Positions 11,419-22,893 of a DNA stretch of 64,000 bases are shown piece after piece. The DNA is from Rhodococcus sp. CH91. Lineage in GTDB: Bacteria; Actinomycetota; Actinomycetes; Mycobacteriales; Mycobacteriaceae. Position numbers and translations under genes: made by a program. The notes below the pieces were generated by a model that saw nothing but the letters and a program-made list of their open reading frames with translations, did no database searches and had not been told where the DNA came from. How positions within the stretch are numbered: position 1 is the stretch's first letter; the number at the start of each line of letters is the position of its first letter. The stretch is taken from positions 96,914 through 160,913 of the forward strand of contig NZ_JAKFYR010000007.1 in NCBI RefSeq assembly GCF_022554085.1, in the 5' to 3' direction.

Positions 11419-12165
11419 ATGGGATATCAGGCGTCGTTCAGGATCTGGCGGGGCGACGCCGGGGGAGGCGAACTCCGCGACTACACCGTCGAGGTCAACG
11501 AAGGGGAAGTCGTCCTCGACATCCTGCATCGCCTGCAGGCCACGCAGGCACCGGACCTCGCCGTGCGATGGAACTGCAAGGCGGGCAAGTGCGGATCCTG
11601 CTCGGCGGAGGTCGACGGTCGTCCACGCCTGACCTGCATGACCCGTATGTCGCTGTTCGACCCGGACGCGACCGTCACCGTCACCCCCATGCGAACCTTC
11701 CCGATCATCCGCGACCTCGTCACCGATGTCTCGTTCAACTACCGGAAGGCCCGTGAGGTCCCGGCATTCGCACCTCCGCCGGATCTCGCCCCGGGGGAGT
11801 ACCGGATGCAGCAGATCGACGTGCAGCGTTCCCAGGAGTTCCGCAAGTGCATCGAGTGCTTCCTGTGCCAGAACGTCTGCCATGTGGTGCGCGACCACGA
11901 GGAGAACAAGCCTGCGTTCGCCGGCCCCCGCTTCTTCATCCGGCTCGCAGAACTCGAGATGCATCCGCTCGACGTCGCCGATCGCCGGGACGCCGCGCAG
12001 GACGAGGACGGTCTCGGTCTGTGCAACATCACCAAGTGCTGTACCGAGGTGTGCCCCGAGAACATCCACATCACCGACAACGCGATCATCCCGATGAAGG
12101 AACGCGTCGCCGGTCGCCGCTACGACCCGCTCGTCTGGCTCGGCAACAAACTCTTCCGGCGCTGA
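11419..12165 (+). CDS. sdhB: Succinate dehydrogenase iron-sulfur subunit SdhB
   Basis: Carries electrons from FAD to the membrane anchor through three iron-sulfur clusters. 248 residues from ATG 11419. N-terminal ferredoxin-type [2Fe-2S] cysteines lie in WNCKAGKCGSC. The C-terminal domain has CIECFLCQNVC and CNITKCCTEVCPENI for the [4Fe-4S] and [3Fe-4S] clusters. It starts one base after the sdhA stop. A convergent lipoprotein gene ends 21 bases downstream, and I saw no strong terminator hairpin between them. Confidence 0.94.
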   Translation: MGYQASFRIWRGDAGGGELRDYTVEVNEGEVVLDILHRLQATQAPDLAVRWNCKAGKCGSCSAEVDGRPRLTCMTRMSLFDPDATVTVTPMRTFPIIRDLVTDVSFNYRKAREVPAFAPPPDLAPGEYRMQQIDVQRSQEFRKCIECFLCQNVCHVVRDHEENKPAFAGPRFFIRLAELEMHPLDVADRRDAAQDEDGLGLCNITKCCTEVCPENIHITDNAIIPMKERVAGRRYDPLVWLGNKLFRR

Positions 12166-14901: not shown

Positions 14902-16053
14902 TCATACCGACTGCGCCCAGCGACCGACGTCACCACGTTCGAGCGCGACGGCGAGCAACTCCGGAAAACGGTCGGGCGTGCACGCGAAGGCCGGCACCCC
15001 CAGCTCGGCCAGAGCAGCCGCGTTGTCGCGGTCGAAGGCCGGCGCCCCGTCGTCGGCCAGGGCGAGCAACACCACGACCTGTACACCGGCGGCGAGCATC
15101 TCGCGGACCCGCGAGAGCATCTCGCTGCGGATCCCACCCTCGTACAGATCCGAGATCAACACGAACAACGAATCGGCGGGTCGCGTGATCAGCGACCTGC
15201 TGTACGCGATCGCCCGGTTGATGTCGGTGCCTCCGCCGAGCTGGGTGCCGAACAGCACCTCCACGGGATCGGCGAGCATGTCGGTGAGGTCGACGACCGA
15301 GGTGTCGAAGACGACCAGAGAGGTCCGAAGCGCCCGCATCGACGCCAGAACCGCGGCGAAGACCGACGCGTACACCACGCTCGACGCCATCGAACCGGAC
15401 TGGTCCACCGCGAGCACCACATCGCGTTTCACCGCCTGTGAACGCCGCCCGTAACCGACCAGCTTCTCGGGCACCACCGTGCGATGCTCCGGCAGGTAGT
15501 GGGCGAGATTCGCGCGGATCGTGCGATCCCAGTCGATGTCGCGCAGTTTCGGGTTCGATGTCCGCGACGATCTGTTCAGCGCACCCGTGACCGCCGCGCG
15601 GGTGTGCTGCGCGATACGTTCCTCGACCTCCCGGACGACCTTCTCCACGACCGTGCGAGCCGTCGCCTTGGTGGTCTCCGGCATCACCCGGTTCAGGCTC
15701 AGCAGCGTTCCCACGAGATGCACGTCGGGTTCCACCACCTCGAGCAACTCCGGTTCGAGGAGCAATCGGGTCAACCCCAGTCGATCCACCGCGTCGCGCT
15801 GCATCACCTGGACGACGGACGTCGGGAAATAGGTCCGGATGTCGCCGAGCCAGCGCGCGACCCGGGGAGCGGATCCACCCAGGCCCGCGGTGCGAGGGCC
15901 GCCGCCCGGACCGGCGTCGTATAGGGCGGCCAGCGCGGCGTCCATCGCGCTGTCGTCCGCGGAGGTGAGCGTGCCCGTCGATTCCTCGGCCGCCTCACCC
16001 AGAGCGAGCCGCCACCGGCGCAGACGTTCGTGCCCCTCGGGTTGCGGTGTCAT
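14902..16053 (-). CDS. VWA-domain protein (CoxE-like), last gene of MoxR cassette
   Basis: 383 residues. Residues about 210-370 are a von Willebrand A domain with a complete metal site (MIDAS): DQSGS at D217/S219/S221, T276 in GGTD and D302 in ISD. The N-terminal half is helical and unrecognised. VWA proteins of this kind act with MoxR AAA+ ATPases as adaptors that bring the ATPase to a target. The ATG overlaps the stop of the DUF5682 gene (ATGA). It is the fifth gene of an overlapping set with SWIM, DUF5691, MoxR and DUF5682 proteins. The true target is unknown. Confidence 0.85.
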   Translation of the reverse strand: MTPQPEGHERLRRWRLALGEAAEESTGTLTSADDSAMDAALAALYDAGPGGGPRTAGLGGSAPRVARWLGDIRTYFPTSVVQVMQRDAVDRLGLTRLLLEPELLEVVEPDVHLVGTLLSLNRVMPETTKATARTVVEKVVREVEERIAQHTRAAVTGALNRSSRTSNPKLRDIDWDRTIRANLAHYLPEHRTVVPEKLVGYGRRSQAVKRDVVLAVDQSGSMASSVVYASVFAAVLASMRALRTSLVVFDTSVVDLTDMLADPVEVLFGTQLGGGTDINRAIAYSRSLITRPADSLFVLISDLYEGGIRSEMLSRVREMLAAGVQVVVLLALADDGAPAFDRDNAAALAELGVPAFACTPDRFPELLAVALERGDVGRWAQSV

Positions 16054-18251
16054 ACGGTCACTCCCAGGATCGACGCGGTGGCGGTCAGAGCGATGCGGCC
16101 ACGTCCGGTGGCAGTCGGTGCGCCGGTCTGCCGGGTTCGTTCGCCCCGGACCGTCTGCCCGAGAAGACGCCGCTCGCCGAACGCGAAGGCGCCGAAGGTG
16201 CGTCGCAGCACGGGCAGGACGTCGACGAAATCCTCCTCGGTGAGGCCGCTGATCCACTCGTCGACGAGCTCGAACAGGGCGCTGTCGTGGACCAGCAGGA
16301 GCCCGCCACCGCCGAGGAAACCGTCGATCCAGCGAGCCTTCGCTGCCGCGGGTGAACCCACCGACAATGCCCGCGCGACCCGCACCGCGGCATCGTGCCC
16401 GTCGAGCCGGCCGGCGTCGCGCAGCATCCGCGTGGTGCGGCCGGTGAGCAGGCCGTCCACGTCGTCACGGTCGCTCACCCGGGCCAGACTGTCGAGCCAG
16501 CGCGCGGTCGTGATCGGGTCCTCGCGCACGGCAAGGGCGAGATGCACCTCGTCGATCGCAGTGCGCAGCGCATCGGCGGCGTCGTGGTCGAGACCGGTCA
16601 CCGCTGCCGGAAGACCGGCACAGGTGCGTGCGAGCAGGGCGTCGCAGACGTGTTCGAGGGAGGAGAGGTCGGTGCCACGCACGTCGCCGTAGCGGACCGT
16701 GCGGACGAGCGTCGGCAGGGCTCCCATCAGGTGCAGAACATCGTGATCGAGTGCGGCAGCCGCGTCGATCGCCGTCACCAGCGTCGGGACGGTGGCCCGC
16801 AGGTCCGCGAGCAGTGCCCGTTCCAGGAGGGCGGTGAGGTCGGCAAGAGTGGCGCCGGGCCGGGCCGCCCGTTCTGCCAGCCTGGCGGCCGCGGCGGATT
16901 CCACGGTCGTGCCCCATCGCGACGCCACGACGATCGCCACCGACGATTCGGGTTCCCATTTCAGCGTCCACGTCTCGCGGAAGGTGCCGGTCGAGCGCAC
17001 CTCGCTCTCCGCGGGTGTGCCCCAGTCGATGTCGAGCAAGGCCAGCCGGTGCAGCAGTCGCGACCGCGCGAGGTCGATGTCCCTGCGCAGGTCCAGGTCG
17101 AGATTCTTCGCTTCGGCGGACCGCTTGAGCCGTAACGACTTCGACTGCTTCTGCAGGTCGGTGTCGAGCGGGACGGTCGGGGTGTCGTCGGAGACGGAAC
17201 CGAGTGCCTCGCCCACCACGAGCCGGCGTGTGACGAGATCGAGCAGGACGTCGTCGCCGTCGCACAGCGCCGCGCGGGTCGCCTCGACGACCTCGTCGAG
17301 TCCGGCGACCGCGCGACCGCGCAGGGCCGCGAGCGTGTCGGCCAGCCGCGTCGCCTCGATGACATGGGCACTCGAGACCGGCAGATCCTCCTCGCGCAGA
17401 ACGCGTGCCACGCGCGTGAACCAGCGCGCGGTCGTGTCGCCGGGCCGGGTGAACAGATGGTGGTACCAACCCGGCGAGGTGATACCGGCGCCGTAGCCGG
17501 AGGACAGGGACAGCCTCGAGTGACTCCACGGCACCCAGGTGAGAGCAGTCTTCACCTTGGGCATGCCCTTGAGCAGGCGCGCGTCGGGAGCGGCGGGCCC
17601 GAGTCGGCCCGTCAGCGCAGGCGCGTGCATGGCTCCGCACACGACGGCGATCGCGCGGGCACCGGCCTTGACGGTCGCGCGCAGCACCTGCCGCATGTGC
17701 GCCTCGCGACGAGCGGTGTGCTCGTCGATCTCGATGTCCTCGCGCAATGCCCGCATCGCGTCGGTGATCTCGTCGAAGGCCTGCGCGGTGCCGTGCTCGA
17801 CCACGGCATCCCACCACTGCTCGAAGTCGGTGTGTCCGGCAGCTCGGGCGAGCGCGCCGAGCAGGTCGTCGGTGGCGCGGTCGCCGGTCTCCCGGTCGGC
17901 CGCGAGCGACATCGCCGCCGGCAGGTCGCAGAAGCGCACGTCCGCGTCGTGCAGATGGGCCCACCGCAGGGCCTGCCATTCCGGGGAGAAGGCCGCGAAC
18001 GGCCAGAAGGCCGCCCGCGCCGGCTCGTCGCGTGCGTAGGCCAACAGTGCGACGGGGGGCACCATGTCGTCGCCGGCCGCGAGGGCGAGAACCGGATCGG
18101 CGTCGGACGGTCCTTCGATGAGCACGGTGTCCGGTTCGAACTCCGTGAGTGCCTGCAGAACCGCACGTGCCGAACCCGGCCCGTGGTGCCGGATCCCGAA
18201 GACCCGGATCTCGGCGGGAGTATCCGTGCGGCCGAAGAGAGCGTCGGTCAC
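16050..18251 (-). CDS. DUF5682 family protein of MoxR cassette
   Basis: 733 residues, cytoplasmic, no membrane segments. N-terminal motifs FGIRHHGPGSAR (H22, H23), VLIEGPSDAD (E46) and VVCGAMHAPAL (H209) resemble the spaced His/Glu motifs of TraB/ChaN/EreA-like metal-dependent folds. That resemblance is my inference. The C-terminal 450 residues are mostly helical with many Arg and Asp. The GTG start overlaps the MoxR stop (GTGA) and its stop overlaps the VWA start, so the genes are translationally coupled. The activity is unknown; hydrolase or scaffold are both possible. Confidence 0.8.
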   Translation of the reverse strand: MTDALFGRTDTPAEIRVFGIRHHGPGSARAVLQALTEFEPDTVLIEGPSDADPVLALAAGDDMVPPVALLAYARDEPARAAFWPFAAFSPEWQALRWAHLHDADVRFCDLPAAMSLAADRETGDRATDDLLGALARAAGHTDFEQWWDAVVEHGTAQAFDEITDAMRALREDIEIDEHTARREAHMRQVLRATVKAGARAIAVVCGAMHAPALTGRLGPAAPDARLLKGMPKVKTALTWVPWSHSRLSLSSGYGAGITSPGWYHHLFTRPGDTTARWFTRVARVLREEDLPVSSAHVIEATRLADTLAALRGRAVAGLDEVVEATRAALCDGDDVLLDLVTRRLVVGEALGSVSDDTPTVPLDTDLQKQSKSLRLKRSAEAKNLDLDLRRDIDLARSRLLHRLALLDIDWGTPAESEVRSTGTFRETWTLKWEPESSVAIVVASRWGTTVESAAAARLAERAARPGATLADLTALLERALLADLRATVPTLVTAIDAAAALDHDVLHLMGALPTLVRTVRYGDVRGTDLSSLEHVCDALLARTCAGLPAAVTGLDHDAADALRTAIDEVHLALAVREDPITTARWLDSLARVSDRDDVDGLLTGRTTRMLRDAGRLDGHDAAVRVARALSVGSPAAAKARWIDGFLGGGGLLLVHDSALFELVDEWISGLTEEDFVDVLPVLRRTFGAFAFGERRLLGQTVRGERTRQTGAPTATGRGRIALTATASILGVTV

Positions 18252-19393
18252 CCGGTGATCTCCCGGCACGCCCGGTAGAAGTCGGACCAGTCGCCTCGTT
18301 CACGCACGACGGCTTCGAGATATTCGTTCCACACCACGCGGTCGGACACCGGGTCCTTCACCACCGATCCCAGGATGCCCGCAGCCACATCGGATGAACG
18401 CAGCACACCGTCGCCGAAGTGCGCCGACAGGGCCAGCCCGCCCGTGACGACCGAGATCGCCTCGGCGGTGGACAACGTTCCCGAGGGCGACTTGAGCTTG
18501 GTCCGGCCGTCGGTGGTCACGCCGCTGCGCAGCTCACGGAAGACGGTGACGACGCGGCGGATCTCCTCGGCTGCCGCCGGCACCGCGGGCAGTTCGAGTG
18601 CGGCGCCGAGCTGTTCGACACGGCGGGTCACGATCGCGACCTCGTCCTCCTCGTCGGCCGGAAGCGGCAGCACTACGGTGTTGAACCGCCGGCGCAGCGC
18701 CGAGGACAGATCGTTGACTCCGCGGTCGCGGTCGTTCGCGGTGGCGATCACATTGAAACCCTTCGCCGCCTGCACCTCGATGCCGAGTTCGGGGACCGGG
18801 AGGGTCTTCTCGGACAGGATGGTGATCAACGCGTCCTGCACGTCGGCGGGGATACGGGTGAGTTCCTCGATCCGGGCGACGGCGCCCTCGTGCATCGCCT
18901 TCATGACCGGAGAGGCGACCAGGGCGTCGGGACTCGGTCCCTCCGCAAGCAGGCGCGCATAGTTCCAGCCGTAGCGCACGGCGTCCTCGCTCGTCCCCGC
19001 CGTCCCTTGCACGAGCCGGGTGGACGAACCGCTGATCGCGGCGGCGAGATGCTCGGAGACCCACGTCTTCGCAGTGCCGGGAACGCCGAGCAGGAGCAGA
19101 GCGCGATCGGTCGCCAGCGTGGCGACGGCCACCTCCATCAGTCGACGCGGTCCCACATACTTCGGGGTGATCACCGTGCCGTCCGACAGGTCGCCGCCGA
19201 GCAGATAGGTCACCACGGCCCACGGCGACAGCCGCCACGACGGTGGGCGGGGCCGGTCGTCGAGTCGGGCGAGCGCGGCGAGCTCGTGCGCGTACTGCTG
19301 CTCGGCGTGCGGGCGCAGCAGGGCGGTGCCGGATTCGGTGGGCCCGGATGCGGTGGGCCCGGACACGGCGGGGGACGACTCGGCGTCGGTCAA
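18248..19393 (-). CDS. MoxR-type AAA+ ATPase of the cassette
   Basis: 381 residues. The AAA+ core has Walker A GVPGTAKT (G103-T110), sensor-1 N220 in IATAND, and an arginine-rich SALRRRFN after it. The Walker B position reads ARIEEL (E176-E177) instead of the usual DE, an Asp-to-Glu change that may slow or alter hydrolysis. MoxR ATPases work with VWA partners to remodel protein or metalloenzyme complexes. I chose the TTG at 19393: it follows GAGGAG and overlaps the upstream stop (TTGA). Upstream in-frame sequence is the shadow of the DUF5691 gene. Confidence 0.88.
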   Translation of the reverse strand: MTDAESSPAVSGPTASGPTESGTALLRPHAEQQYAHELAALARLDDRPRPPSWRLSPWAVVTYLLGGDLSDGTVITPKYVGPRRLMEVAVATLATDRALLLLGVPGTAKTWVSEHLAAAISGSSTRLVQGTAGTSEDAVRYGWNYARLLAEGPSPDALVASPVMKAMHEGAVARIEELTRIPADVQDALITILSEKTLPVPELGIEVQAAKGFNVIATANDRDRGVNDLSSALRRRFNTVVLPLPADEEDEVAIVTRRVEQLGAALELPAVPAAAEEIRRVVTVFRELRSGVTTDGRTKLKSPSGTLSTAEAISVVTGGLALSAHFGDGVLRSSDVAAGILGSVVKDPVSDRVVWNEYLEAVVRERGDWSDFYRACREITG

Positions 19394-20802
19394 CTCAGCT
19401 CCTCGTGGATCGTCTTGCGGAGAGTCAGGATGTCGGCTGCGCTTGCGAACAGGTGCAGGCGCCCGAGATCGTCGGTGCGGTTCGCGGCGTCGGCGAGCAG
19501 ATCGGCGAGATCGAAGGGCGCCCGGTGCGCGAGCAGAGCCAGGACATCGCGGACGACGGGGGTCGTCGTCAGTGTCGTGTACAGCGCGGTGAGCACCTTC
19601 TCGGCGACGTCGTGCGGCCACGGCGCCGGGAGAGCGGCGAGCAGACCGCCGTCGAGCATCCTGGCGGCGGGTGCCTGTCGAAGATGCGTCAGCAGGACCT
19701 CGCGGGGCAGCACCCGTGCGACCGAGACGTCGACGGCGCTGGTGCAGCGCAGCAACGCCGCAGCCCATTCGCCGTCGTGCTGCCGGGCGGTCGCCACGCC
19801 CCAGGCTTCCGTCAGAGCCGCCCGCAACCGCTCGTCGATGTCGAGTTCGAGGGGTGCGCTGCCGCCTCCCGGACGGGGCCACAGCGACAGCGGCGCCGCG
19901 GAGACCGCCGCAGCGACCAGATCTTCCGCCCGGTGAGCCCGAGCGTCGCCGAGACCGTCGCGCAAGGCGTCCGGATCCAGGCGATCCGGTACCTCGACGG
20001 TGAGGCTGGACCCGTCGATGCGCACCCACTGCTGCGCACGCACCCCCATGCGATACGCGAACCCCGAGGCGGGCAGACGGGGGAGAAGGTCGAGTGCCAC
20101 GGCACGGACCTTGCTGCTGCGGTCGTCGAGAGCGTGCTCGAGCAGTTCTTCGTCGTACGGGCCGAGACCGACCTCGAGCAGTGCCAGCAACTCGGCGCGC
20201 CGGCCCGCGGTGTGCGAACTCCACGAGGCCGCGAGCATCGCCGTGGCGGCCGCCGGATCGTGCGCCCGCGACGCCTCGAACCATCGGCGGCGGCGAGCGG
20301 GCGGACCGTCGTGCCAGGCTGTCTCGTCGTTCGGATCCGGAGGCAGCAGATCCACCCACTCCGGGTTGCGTGAGGCCACCCAGCGTCCCCGCGTCCCGGT
20401 CAGGGCGACGAGCCGGTCGCGGTGTACCGCGTCGGTGGCCGCCACGGCCAGCAGGTCGACCACGATGTCGTGCGACGCCCGGAATCGCGCGGCCACCTCG
20501 AACCACTCGTCGAGCAGGGGGGAGCGCACCGCGAGCAGTGCACGCAGACGTTCGGCCGCAGCGCCCGGAAGGACGGGACGGTCGTCGTCCGGAGCGGGTG
20601 CGGGCAGGTCGCGGACGACGGGCACGGTCGCCGCGGTGAGGAAGGCCGATTCCAGGGCCACAGCCGCGAGCAGGGCCGAAGCGTGGTCGCCGGCGAGATC
20701 GGCGGCGGCCTCGGCGGTGTGCAGCGAGGCGAAATCCGGCGTCGATCGCGCAGTTCCGAGAAGTGCTGCTGTGGTGAGCGATTCGGGGACTGTTCCGGTC
20801 AC
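19390..20802 (-). CDS. DUF5691 family protein of MoxR cassette
   Basis: 470 residues, no signal or membrane segment. It is rich in Ala, Leu, Arg and Asp and looks like a helical repeat protein: SSKVRAVALDLLPRLP is HEAT-repeat-like. The conserved-looking N-terminus is LTTAALLGTAR. The GTG at 20802 is preceded by GAGG six bases upstream and overlaps the SWIM gene stop (GTGA). An ATG at 20817 would add five residues. The partner genes suggest a scaffold or substrate-recognition part of the ATPase system, but no activity is known to me. Confidence 0.8.
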   Translation of the reverse strand: MTGTVPESLTTAALLGTARSTPDFASLHTAEAAADLAGDHASALLAAVALESAFLTAATVPVVRDLPAPAPDDDRPVLPGAAAERLRALLAVRSPLLDEWFEVAARFRASHDIVVDLLAVAATDAVHRDRLVALTGTRGRWVASRNPEWVDLLPPDPNDETAWHDGPPARRRRWFEASRAHDPAAATAMLAASWSSHTAGRRAELLALLEVGLGPYDEELLEHALDDRSSKVRAVALDLLPRLPASGFAYRMGVRAQQWVRIDGSSLTVEVPDRLDPDALRDGLGDARAHRAEDLVAAAVSAAPLSLWPRPGGGSAPLELDIDERLRAALTEAWGVATARQHDGEWAAALLRCTSAVDVSVARVLPREVLLTHLRQAPAARMLDGGLLAALPAPWPHDVAEKVLTALYTTLTTTPVVRDVLALLAHRAPFDLADLLADAANRTDDLGRLHLFASAADILTLRKTIHEELS

Positions 20803-22091
20803 CAGGTCCTCACGCATCCTTCGGTGAACAGTGACACCGGGGTGAGCGACACCCCGTCCCAGTCGCCGCAGACGGTGACCGGATGCCCGCCTGCGACGGC
20901 ATGCAGCCGCCATCGGCCGTCGTCGTCGCCGGTGATGGGCACGGCGCGTCCGGACCGGTCGACGACGAACCAGCCGTCGTCGGTGTCGACGGGCACGACG
21001 GAGCCGAGCAGAACCGGCCATGCGCGCAGCCACGGATCTGCTCCCCGCATGCGCGCGTACTCGTCCAGTGCGGTGTCCAGATCGGTCGCCGGGAGTGTCG
21101 TGAACGGCTCCGGATCCGAGTGCCGGCGACCCGGCACCGCACGTAGAGGGGCGGACGCGGGGTAGAAGTGCAGGTCTGCGTCGATCGACGAACCCGGGGC
21201 AGGCATCGAGGTGGTGAACCGTGCCGTGCCGTGCGCGAAGTCGAGGAGAAGTGCCCACCGGCCGGTAGCACGTCCTCGCAACCAGATCCTGCGGGTGAAC
21301 ATGCGGCTCTCCTCGGTGATGCGCGTCGCGAGGACCTGCCAGCGGTCGCGCACCGCGGGTTCGGCGCGCACCTCCTCGACGCGGACACCGAACCCGAGGT
21401 GAGTACGGAGCGACCGCACGAGCGGACCGGGCAGTTCGTTGCGCTGCCGGTACGCGACGACCATCAGATGCAGACGTGCATATTCGGTGAGCAGGCGGGC
21501 GGGCCAGTCCTCGTCGCGCTCGACCACCGACGCCAGCGTGCGCAGGCTCGAGGCCACGCCGGGCGCCTGGGCGTCCACCATGCGGGCGGCGATCTCCTCG
21601 TAGGTGTCGTAACCGTGATCGACCGAACCGAGACCGTGCCGGATGCGGTCGGTGAGCCACCGGTCGAGGTCCTCGAGTCCTGCCGCGACCCGTTCGGCGC
21701 GGCGCTGGGCGGCCGCCGGATCGGGCACCTTCACCGGTTCGTCGGCCGGCGGGTCCGGGATCGTGGCGGCAGCGGCCCGGGCCGAGAGCCATTCGACGAC
21801 GAAGGCGGGCGGATCACCCGCGGCCAGCGCGCCTTCGGACCACCGCACGAGCAGCGACAAGGCGTGCTTGCAGGGCACCTTCCGGCTCGGGCACGAGCAG
21901 AGGAAGGCGGGCGCGTTCGGATCGATCGCGGTGCGGTAGGGCGTCGTGCCGCGTCCGCGGCACAGTCCCCACAGCACCGCACCGTCGTGGCCGGTCTCGG
22001 CCCACGCCGCAGCCACGCCGCGCGCCGCCGTCATCGAGGACGGATCGGGCGCGACGGCGTTGATCTGCTGGAGGGTCCAGGGCGTGGTCAC
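20799..22091 (-). CDS. SWIM zinc-finger protein, first gene of MoxR cassette
   Basis: 430 residues. A SWIM zinc finger, CxCx6CxH, lies at C65, C67, C74 and H76 (FLCSCPSRKVPCKHALSLL). SWIM domains bind DNA or protein. The rest is mixed alpha/beta and unrecognised, with several Trp residues in the C-terminal half. The start is GTG 22091, with TACCTT 8 bases upstream and no ribosome site, so it is probably leaderless from its own promoter. It lies 42 bases downstream of bioQ on the same strand and could also be reached by readthrough from there. Confidence 0.85.
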   Translation of the reverse strand: MTTPWTLQQINAVAPDPSSMTAARGVAAAWAETGHDGAVLWGLCRGRGTTPYRTAIDPNAPAFLCSCPSRKVPCKHALSLLVRWSEGALAAGDPPAFVVEWLSARAAAATIPDPPADEPVKVPDPAAAQRRAERVAAGLEDLDRWLTDRIRHGLGSVDHGYDTYEEIAARMVDAQAPGVASSLRTLASVVERDEDWPARLLTEYARLHLMVVAYRQRNELPGPLVRSLRTHLGFGVRVEEVRAEPAVRDRWQVLATRITEESRMFTRRIWLRGRATGRWALLLDFAHGTARFTTSMPAPGSSIDADLHFYPASAPLRAVPGRRHSDPEPFTTLPATDLDTALDEYARMRGADPWLRAWPVLLGSVVPVDTDDGWFVVDRSGRAVPITGDDDGRWRLHAVAGGHPVTVCGDWDGVSLTPVSLFTEGCVRTW

Positions 22092-22133: not shown

Positions 22134-22760
22134 TCAGGACGTCGCACGGCTCGCCAGGCGAGCGCGGACGCCGTCGATCAGCAAGCGCAGGCCGAACTCG
22201 AATCGTACGGCCGGGTCGCCGTCGAGCAGGTCGGCGTCGGCGCCGGCCGGTTGCGCGGTGGCGACATCGGGGGAAAGGGGCGCGTGCGTGAGCGCGCCGA
22301 GCTCGGCCAGCTGCGCCCGGGACTGTTCGTCGACCGTGTGGCCGAGGACGTAGTGGAGCAGTGCGTAACCGGTGAGTTCGGCGTAGGCCCGCGACAGACC
22401 GGCGCGTTCCGCGGTGGCGACGAAGGCGTCACGTGCTCGTGAGGTGGTGAGACGGGAGGCATAGGTCGAGGCGACGAGTTCCGCGCCGTCGCGGTGGGCG
22501 AGCAACGCGCCCCGGAAACGATGGGCGAGTTCGGCGATCGCGTCGTCCCAGCTCTCGCTCGTGGAGGGTTCGTCGGCGCCGTCGAGGATACGGTCGGCCA
22601 TGGCGCCGAGCAGGGTCTGCTTGTTGGGGAAGTGCCAGTACAGTGCGCCGGGCTGGACGCCGAGCGACGACGCGAGCTTGCGCATCGTCAGGTCGCCGAG
22701 TCCGTACTCGTCGAGGATCGCCATGGCGCCGTCGAGGACGTCGCCGCGTCGCAACTGCAC
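22134..22760 (-). CDS. bioQ: TetR-family repressor, probable biotin regulator BioQ
   Basis: 208 residues from GTG 22760. The N-terminal TetR helix-turn-helix shows LTMRKLASSLGVQPGALYWHFPNKQTLL, with the C-terminal ligand/dimer domain after it. It is divergent from bioB with two BioQ-type palindromes between them, and a third copy lies at bioF, so repression of biotin genes and of itself is the natural reading. BioQ in Corynebacterium and Mycobacterium acts without its own biotin-ligase domain; it responds to biotin status through other factors. In-frame sequence up to 22892 runs through the operator and is not used. A ribosome-like AGGAG lies 13 bases upstream. Confidence 0.85.
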   Translation of the reverse strand: MQLRRGDVLDGAMAILDEYGLGDLTMRKLASSLGVQPGALYWHFPNKQTLLGAMADRILDGADEPSTSESWDDAIAELAHRFRGALLAHRDGAELVASTYASRLTTSRARDAFVATAERAGLSRAYAELTGYALLHYVLGHTVDEQSRAQLAELGALTHAPLSPDVATAQPAGADADLLDGDPAVRFEFGLRLLIDGVRARLASRATS

Positions 22761-22834
22761 TGCTTCTTCGCTCCTGCTTCTCCCGGGCCGACGGTGGTGA
22801 TCCGCCGTGAATCCGCGCCGGCGGATCCGTGCCT

Positions 22835-22864
22835 TTGACAGTATCGGACGGCTCGCCCTAACCT
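22835..22864 (+). promoter_or_regulatory. bioB promoter
   Basis: TTGACA (22835-22840), an 18-base spacer, then TAACCT (22859-22864). The two BioQ-type palindromes begin at the last base of the -10 box and cover the expected transcript start, the right place for repression. Confidence 0.65.
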
Positions 22865-22893
22865 GAACGCCGTTCAATTGAACGATGTTCAAT
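22864..22893. promoter_or_regulatory. Two adjacent BioQ-type operators between bioQ and bioB
   Basis: TGAACGCCGTTCA (22864-22876) and ATTGAACGATGTTCAAT (22877-22893) are both perfect palindromes of the form TGAAC-N3-GTTCA. Their centres are 15 bases apart. They lie downstream of the bioB -10 box and upstream of bioQ, so one element can control both genes. Confidence 0.85.

Follow-up and report, generated by a model that had tools for sequence, protein, structure and literature searches.

We analyzed a 64,000-nucleotide stretch of DNA from Rhodococcus sp. CH91 (contig NZ_JAKFYR010000007.1, positions 96,914 to 160,913; the window), and show that five consecutive genes in it, encoding a SWIM zinc-finger protein, a DUF5691 protein, a MoxR AAA+ ATPase, a DUF5682 protein and a von Willebrand factor A (VWA) protein, form a conserved cassette of the YehL type of MoxR systems, with a four-gene cousin in Escherichia coli K-12 (yehLMPQ, encoding MoxR-DUF5682-VWA-SWIM). 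The slot before moxR is exchangeable: it holds the HEAT-like DUF5691 in loci of the window's type and mostly DUF4132 in loci of the E. coli type. The N-terminus of DUF5682 is likely, although unproven, to have a TraB/ChaN/Tiki-type hydrolase fold. Our preferred reading, which we hold tentatively and at somewhat less than an even chance, is that the five products make up a YehL-type remodelling machine, cytoplasmic and driven by ATP, with a hydrolase-like DUF5682 core, and with SWIM and DUF5691 as readers of the target.

An original prediction made from the sequence alone had described these five genes, and all five were present on the minus strand at the positions that it gave, with their domains matched by Pfam (Table 1). 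Our survey of related loci confirms that the cassette is a conserved unit, that the five genes co-occur in other genomes, and that the MoxR-VWA pair has further steady partners, as had been predicted. In a first sample, a collection scan with a DUF5682 alignment from which we took the best 80 of 576 confirmed relatives (a selection that favoured Actinomycetota) and read gene content with profiles grown from the window proteins, 61 of 80 loci kept the order and strand of all five genes, one of the 61 with DUF5691 in two pieces. The SWIM-DUF5691 pair was on the opposite strand in 8 loci (seven Streptomyces and one Streptantibioticus), and the remaining 11 had fewer genes, all 11 being near a contig end. 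Members outside the Actinomycetota included two cyanobacteria (L069, L085), a member of the Phycisphaerales (L081), one of the Obscuribacterales (L091) and Thiofilum (L102). Using a second sample of 60 regions, chosen from DUF5682 matches in four phylum samples (in which DUF5682 was over the cut-off in 21 of 296, 13 of 349, 10 of 194 and 18 of 149 genomes), we observe the MoxR-DUF5682-VWA triad together in 54 regions, and 27 regions have the five families complete. Lacking the triad were two regions that reach a contig end (L140, L156), one where no VWA was seen (L142), and three with DUF5682 alone (L146, L148, L149). In the 296 genomes of the window's own phylum, DUF5691 was over the cut-off in 18, all of them within the 21 with DUF5682 (Fisher p 5e-26, with relatedness ignored). 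Annotated plasmids of Deinococcus taeanensis and Rhizobium etli also carry all five genes, with a small additional gene before DUF5682 in Deinococcus; four of the five are annotated on a Methylosinus plasmid, where the gene table is incomplete, and a Hymenobacter plasmid has one long DUF5691 gene, AAA, DUF5682 and VWA genes, and no separate SWIM gene.

The families are also linked in their descent and, in some loci, physically. Protein distance matrices agree at r 0.76-0.90 across the 96 loci with all five families and at 0.97 for the triad (127 loci), with 0 of 500 permutations reaching any observed value, and a high correlation of this kind is also expected from shared ancestry alone. Seven loci have DUF5682 and VWA joined in one open frame, and 18 loci have SWIM and DUF5691 joined in this way. 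These frame fusions suggest two physical pairs and, with them, a motor side of MoxR, VWA and DUF5682 and a reader side of SWIM with a HEAT or DUF4132 protein. The single DUF5682-VWA frames, in L183-L186, L168, L156 and L162, are longer than 1,100 codons.

We class the window MoxR as YehL-type because it scores 226 bits (40% identity) against YehL and 22 bits against RavA, the comparison being with these two, the two MoxR proteins of E. coli. The VWA protein, encoded two genes downstream of moxR, matches YehP with 258 bits (41% identity) and ViaA with 29, i.e., RavA and ViaA are only remote relatives. The Walker A pattern is present in all 133 MoxR family frames, and Walker B in 118 of 133 by a loose pattern and 84 of 133 by a strict one. 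Among the 84 caught by the strict pattern, Walker B is mostly Glu-Glu (such as IARVEEL); the usual reading is Asp-Glu, and Glu-Glu may be a mark of the YehL subfamily. Of the 131 VWA family frames, all have the DxSxS of the metal ion-dependent adhesion site (MIDAS), 126 have its Thr pattern and 111 a strict Asp pattern. The best relatives of the window MoxR in the PDB are midasin (E 1.3e-18) and then NorQ (2.6e-8); our sequence search of the PDB gave no match for the SWIM or VWA protein at the limits used, and an NCBIfam search of the five proteins gave nothing near the cut-off.

The original prediction had assigned the other three partners to a larger complex of unknown function, and had overlooked the E. 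coli K-12 cousin. The yehI-yehK-yehL-yehM-yehP-yehQ locus shares with the cassette the MoxR, DUF5682, VWA and SWIM genes, adjacent on one strand, but has the SWIM gene last (YehQ, 614 amino acids, with two finger-like motifs), lacks DUF5691, and carries DUF4132 (YehI) upstream. Other MoxR-VWA systems, i.e., NorQD, RavA-ViaA, CbbQO and CoxDE, likewise combine a motor with a VWA adaptor that has a MIDAS, but in the sources available in part to us these are two-gene pairs that serve a client. What follows from papers cited by PMC number likewise concerns the available parts of their texts. Such pairs remodel targets or insert metals, and the MIDAS metal is thought to bind the target (PMC13036017, PMC3893208). 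RavA and YehL are the two MoxR ATPases of E. coli K-12 (PMC3893208), and the YehL subfamily has been named in print and reported, like most MoxR subfamilies, to be tied to VWA proteins; the available parts of these papers mention neither a function for it nor DUF5682, DUF5691, DUF4132 or SWIM partners (PMC3893208, PMC11432383).

Two main architectures were found. Type A has the order of the window, with DUF5691 in the slot before moxR, and type B has the E. coli order, MoxR-DUF5682-VWA-SWIM, with a SWIM protein that resembles YehQ. DUF4132 fills the type-B slot directly before moxR in L135-L139, L141, L163, L165, L167 and L187; in E. coli, yehI (DUF4132) is upstream of yehL with yehK in between. 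Two DUF4132 genes are present downstream in L142, not in the slot, and none was seen in the L140 and L161 regions. In L183-L186 and L168, which are second copies in large actinobacterial genomes, and in L162, the slot holds a family of 1,600-1,900 amino acid proteins, with a DUF4132 domain in the L162 member and no Pfam match in L183 and L168. HEAT_2 proteins fill the slot in L164 and also in L159, a planctomycete locus of type A, and DUF4132 members themselves carry WGR (L138, L187) or HEAT_2 (L139). Shared ancestry of DUF5691 and DUF4132 was rejected at this sensitivity (HHalign 0.2%). Across the 349 Pseudomonadota genomes, DUF4132 was found in 10. All 8 genomes with a type-B DUF5682 have it, as do 2 that lack DUF5682, whereas the 5 whose DUF5682 is of type A alone do not. 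In the 8 type-B genomes it was next to moxR in 6, downstream in 1 (G453, L142) and on another contig in 1 (G469, L140), where L140 and L142 show neither VWA nor SWIM and were typed B by how their MoxR and DUF5682 scored rather than by the order of their genes.

In a core tree of 127 loci, a single clade (support 1.0) contains all 104 loci labelled A, and four loci with the order VWA-MoxR-DUF5682, termed type C, form a clade of their own (support 1.0). The 19 B loci do not separate from C, since any group that contains them all has at least 23 members; labels B and C were set before the tree, and all remaining loci, including those without a DUF5691 match, count as A. The type C loci (L166, L169, L188, L189) have a divergent arrangement, with no SWIM-family gene found beside them. 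Clade A is clustered by phylum with several cross-phylum changes, since it shows 10 changes of phylum label vs at least 21 in 200 shuffles.

The largest protein of the cassette provides the clue to a possible activity. DUF5682 carries no family name other than its DUF number. For the main DUF5682 profile we used 118 non-redundant sequences (141 before filtering), and the motifs with residues invariant in all 118 are GxRHH (its first His), IEGP (Glu), DLP (Asp), RExxM (Arg) and GAxH, the second GxxH (Gly and His). In HHalign, the N-terminus matched TraB at 77.4% (E 2e-5, 88 columns), a match that spans the first GxxH and the Glu and not the second GxxH, and matched ChaN at 55.6% (E 1.2e-4, 180 columns), with GxxH, E, DLP, RExxM and GxxH all in register. 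A smaller, 13-sequence alignment (A1) gave 81.9% for TraB and 34.9% for ChaN. As controls, ChaN against TraB gave 85.2% (the positive control), ChaN against the erythromycin-esterase (EreA-type) profile 9.6%, and TraB against EreA 0.1%; DUF5691, SWIM, VWA and the rest of DUF5682 reached at most 1.2% against the same superfamily profiles. DUF5682 shares with the TraB/ChaN/Tiki/erythromycin-esterase superfamily the GxxH...E...GxxH order, and its N-terminus resembles the superfamily profiles to a degree that varies with the alignment (TraB 41-82%, ChaN 4-56%), but it differs in being large, tied to an AAA+ motor, and without a match to the esterase profile. The Tiki superfamily is described as having a site of two His and two Glu (PMC6254334), and the invariant H22, E46 and H209 would probably form the active site of DUF5682.

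The two putative readers are under looser constraint than the motor. The zinc site of the SWIM protein (C65, C67, C74, H76) is invariant in the 38 rows of alignment A4, the CxC...CxH pattern occurs in 96 of 102 SWIM-family frames, and HHalign (90.7%, E 1.3e-6) shows that, apart from the finger, the type-A SWIM protein is a homologue of YehQ from E. coli. DUF5691 appears weakly HEAT-like: HEAT_2 was matched by 3 of 44 relatives, and alphaRep/HEAT chains of the PDB at E 0.008-0.3.

Starting from the observed gene set, its co-inheritance, the Walker A and MIDAS motifs and the invariant residues of DUF5682, we infer that the products may act as one complex in the cytoplasm. A MoxR hexamer and VWA, acting via its metal site, would be the motor and the adaptor, and DUF5682 would be a permanent core subunit with a hydrolase-type N-terminal domain. 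The SWIM and HEAT-like DUF5691 proteins would recognize the target, and ATP hydrolysis would present it or pull it to DUF5682, where it would be cleaved or modified. A Kyte-Doolittle scan of the five proteins found no 19-residue stretch above 1.82. A jumbo-phage MoxR-vWA pair whose vWA is fused to a metallopeptidase has been reported (PMC7824862), an earlier case of a motor of this kind that carries a hydrolase, and we favour a motor that feeds its target to DUF5682 because of this precedent and the gene fusions.

Several observations count against such a machine. On the side of the fold, a second DUF5682 alignment (A2) gave less, with 41.4% for TraB and 3.9% for ChaN, no PDB chain matched DUF5682 in our sequence search, and the Glu that ChaN has two residues before the first His is not present in DUF5682. 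The comparison of DUF5682 with the EreA-type profile also failed (0.7-1.0% in all alignments), although known kin score little better against that profile. On the side of the complex, the cyanobacterial DUF5682 genes of L146, L148 and L149 have no MoxR or VWA partner in the stretch read, and cyanobacterial L080, cut by a contig end upstream, has no VWA downstream despite there being room for one. L153 lacks both SWIM and DUF5691 in its stretch, and L157-L160 gave no DUF5691 match at the threshold. The lone DUF5682 genes, in particular, argue against an obligate five-part machine.

The reading that comes closest to this one is that MoxR-VWA is a dedicated, NorQD-like chaperone that loads metal into, or activates, a client enzyme, DUF5682. 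It is nearly as easy to fit to the data as a motor that feeds a target, and we consider it a minority possibility with a real chance of being right. MoxR-VWA pairs do serve client enzymes, with NorQD inserting metal (PMC13036017, PMC3893208), DUF5682 has invariant His and Glu residues, and the VWA is CoxE-like. However, the DUF5682-VWA fusions suit a fixed subunit better than a client, and maturation leaves the SWIM and HEAT/DUF4132 proteins without a role. The original prediction had also raised a conflict function, for which MoxR-vWA ternary systems would be the model, and we now regard this as improbable. In its favour are the patchy distribution across the four phylum samples, the faster evolution of SWIM and DUF5691, the swapped slot before moxR, and the Methylosinus plasmid copy, which lies amid transposase and toxin-antitoxin genes. 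Conflict systems are marked by displaced effectors, variable segments, and presence or absence between close relatives (PMC7159879). The ternary systems, as described in the same source, share with the cassette MoxR, VWA and a third constant component, but here this component is DUF5682, not VMAP or iSTAND, the window MoxR falls below the cut-off of the bpMoxR model (21.4 vs 27 bits), and only the slot before moxR changes, with no displaced effector seen on VWA. Sequence variability of the parts is moderate. As for close relatives, the cassette is in 12 of 14 Rhodococcus contigs, and yehLMPQ has a coverage of 80% or more in 5162 of 5426 E. coli genomes; across phyla the genes are patchy. In E. 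coli they are core chromosomal genes, with 5320 chromosomal places vs 2 on plasmids; relatives were found in 31 of 72,556 plasmid records, some of these chromosome-sized, and in 1 of 50,697 phage records, and a scan of viral contigs confirmed none of 13 pattern matches. In PADLOC, the best that any of the five proteins reached was a match of the ATPase to IetA (E 0.008 and 0.015). Nor does the neighbourhood resemble a defence island: in a small sample of 14 type-A loci, the flanks matched 3 PADLOC families (82 proteins, one protein each) vs 7 in the 83 proteins of 14 control regions. Conserved flank partners of type A were sought as well and rejected, since even the commonest family reached just 11 of 80 loci, of which ten are from Nocardia and one is from Antrihabitans. 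In one ST131 sublineage of E. coli, the metG/DUF4132/yeh region is the chromosomal site of a resistance transposon (PMC9334617). In the reduced strain DGF-298, which is viable, a stretch with yehI-yehQ has been removed and is therefore dispensable in that background (PMC10652928).

A machine that remodels protein-DNA or protein-RNA assemblies, in which WGR/DUF4132, HEAT and SWIM would be readers of nucleic acid and which would act in DNA damage, is in our view unlikely. It is consistent with DUF4132, which in many type-B loci precedes moxR and in L138 and L187 carries WGR, and with midasin being ahead of NorQ as the PDB relative of MoxR. Upstream of E. coli yehI is yehF, a WGR gene by its Pfam number, which we take to be the same gene as molR. 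In an SOS time course, expression of yehF goes up roughly twofold (PMC11002266), molR is among LexA-regulated genes (PMC11039860), and DUF4132 and WGR genes of Deinococcus radiodurans rise upon DdrO depletion (PMC8533742). However, irradiated irrE-deleted cells did not show this last rise, and the available parts of that paper do not mention MoxR (PMC8533742). Deletion of molR is synthetically sick with that of lepA (PMC4245954). Moreover, the regulated E. coli gene is yehF, not yehL, and this evidence concerns neighbours or partners rather than YehLMPQ. A LexA-like site lies 25 bp before E. coli yehF (L190, positions 11450-11465). This site is at chance level, being one of 10 one-mismatch sites in 19.5 kb, and of 8 type-B regions from Pseudomonadota, 1 has a perfect site. 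We rejected SOS control of type A, since a Gram-positive SOS box (at most one mismatch) was upstream of only 1 of 74 type-A SWIM genes. The molR locus beside yehI raises the further idea of molybdate handling, which we consider very improbable. It draws on the name of molR, a gene reportedly named for molybdate use in a 1990 paper. No molybdenum gene was seen among the 25 of 69 flank Pfam families shown, the most frequent flank family occurs in 11 of 80 loci, and molybdate genes did not respond along with the DUF4132/WGR genes (PMC8533742). A bolder proposal, namely that DUF5682 is a novel AAA+-coupled hydrolase, with its TraB/Tiki-type active site set within the MoxR-VWA machine, with exchangeable readers of nucleic acid or protein (SWIM with HEAT/DUF5691 or with WGR/DUF4132), and with a DNA-damage role in E. 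coli, is a long shot. If it were true, a laboratory strain would harbour, unrecognized, a remodelling machine that is coupled to a hydrolase and differs from the classes of ClpP, FtsH and Lon.

Within the window, the cassette has the features listed in Table 1.

Table 1. Features of the YehL-type cassette and its adjacent regulator gene in the Rhodococcus sp. CH91 window
Feature	Position	Strand	Evidence
SWIM zinc-finger protein, 430 amino acids, first gene	20799..22091	-	Pfam PF04434, 19.8 bits (cut-off 19.6)
CxC...CxH zinc site, SWIM protein residues 65-76	21864..21899	-	sequence
DUF5691 protein, 470 amino acids, weakly HEAT-like, slot before moxR	19390..20802	-	PF18944, E 6.6e-88
MoxR AAA+ ATPase, YehL type, 381 amino acids	18248..19393	-	AAA_5, E 5.9e-37
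Walker A GVPGTAKT, MoxR residues 103-110	19064..19087	-	sequence
DUF5682 protein, 733 amino acids, putative TraB/ChaN-like N-terminal domain	16050..18251	-	PF18934, E 2e-258; HHalign
GIRHHGP motif (first GxxH), DUF5682 residues 19-25	18177..18197	-	invariant first His
Glu46 of IEGP motif, DUF5682	18114..18116	-	invariant in 118 non-redundant sequences
GAMH (second GxxH), DUF5682 residues 206-209	17625..17636	-	invariant Gly and His
VWA (CoxE-like) protein, 383 amino acids	14902..16053	-	VWA_CoxE PF05762, E 2.3e-54
MIDAS DQSGS, VWA residues 217-221	15391..15405	-	DxSxS pattern
TetR regulator, 42 bp upstream of SWIM gene	22134..22892	-	PF00440/PF02909

The four 4-base overlaps that had been described between the genes are present, i.e., GTGA at 20799-20802, TTGA at 19390-19393, GTGA at 18248-18251 and ATGA at 16050-16053. 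The accompanying claim that the proteins are made in a fixed ratio goes further than the data, in that 4-base overlaps recur in relatives without being universal, and DUF5691 is divergent from moxR in 13 loci. An NTGA overlap is possible at 46 of 98, 62 of 99, 58 of 132 and 73 of 130 of the four junctions, counts that include fused and divergent gene pairs, and translational coupling across the overlaps of the cassette is plausible. DUF5682 is single copy in the CH91 genome. Among the best 80 of 576 relatives, the closest locus is that of Rhodococcus gordoniae (DUF5682 89% identical), and against it the ratio of nonsynonymous to synonymous substitution (dN/dS) is 0.27 for SWIM, 0.28 for DUF5691, 0.05 for MoxR, 0.12 for DUF5682 and 0.08 for VWA. 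All five genes are therefore maintained by purifying selection, with far tighter constraint on the motor genes than on SWIM and DUF5691. Over four comparisons with Rhodococcus and Prescottella loci, SWIM and DUF5691 range over 0.27-0.52 vs 0.05-0.14 for MoxR, all values being below 1.

In the window, an MFS gene lies on one side of the cassette, and on the other side TetR is followed by bioB, nadA, a nadB-like flavoprotein gene and nadC. The cassette had been thought to interrupt a conserved bio-to-nad gene order, but bioB to nadA is intact, with the cassette next to it. From a BioB search of 25 Rhodococcus genomes we fetched 15 contigs, of which 1 was too short; in 12 of the 14 informative contigs the cassette adjoins TetR-bioB (one of the 12, L257, ends inside DUF5682), and it is absent from the other 2. 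An MFS or SDH gene is on the other side of the cassette, within the stretch, in 10 of the 12. In L255 and L256, TetR is directly next to the SDH gene, an apparent empty cassette site. Since TetR adjoins bioB even in these two congeners that lack the cassette, it is more likely to belong with bioB than with the cassette. The cassette is an inherited locus of the genus Rhodococcus that is absent in some species.

In the literature searched, which was covered in part, we found no published function for the exact five-gene set, as the original prediction had supposed, or for YehL, although MoxR reviews of 2006 and 2012 may describe the context of YehL. The same search found no paper naming DUF5682 or DUF5691, and one paper matched for yehLMPQ, by the name of the subfamily only. 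Two papers on DUF4132 make no link to MoxR in their available parts (PMC8533742, PMC9334617). We saw neither the likeness of the DUF5682 N-terminus to TraB/ChaN/Tiki-type hydrolases nor the exchangeable slot before moxR in any paper. RavA has been studied, and the YehL system now has a parts list in two main architectures, together with a fold hypothesis for its largest subunit, DUF5682. If the hydrolase reading is true, these loci would represent a new class of AAA+-coupled enzyme that extends from E. coli to Rhodococcus, and that is also present in cyanobacteria, planctomycetes, Deinococcus and Bacteroidota.

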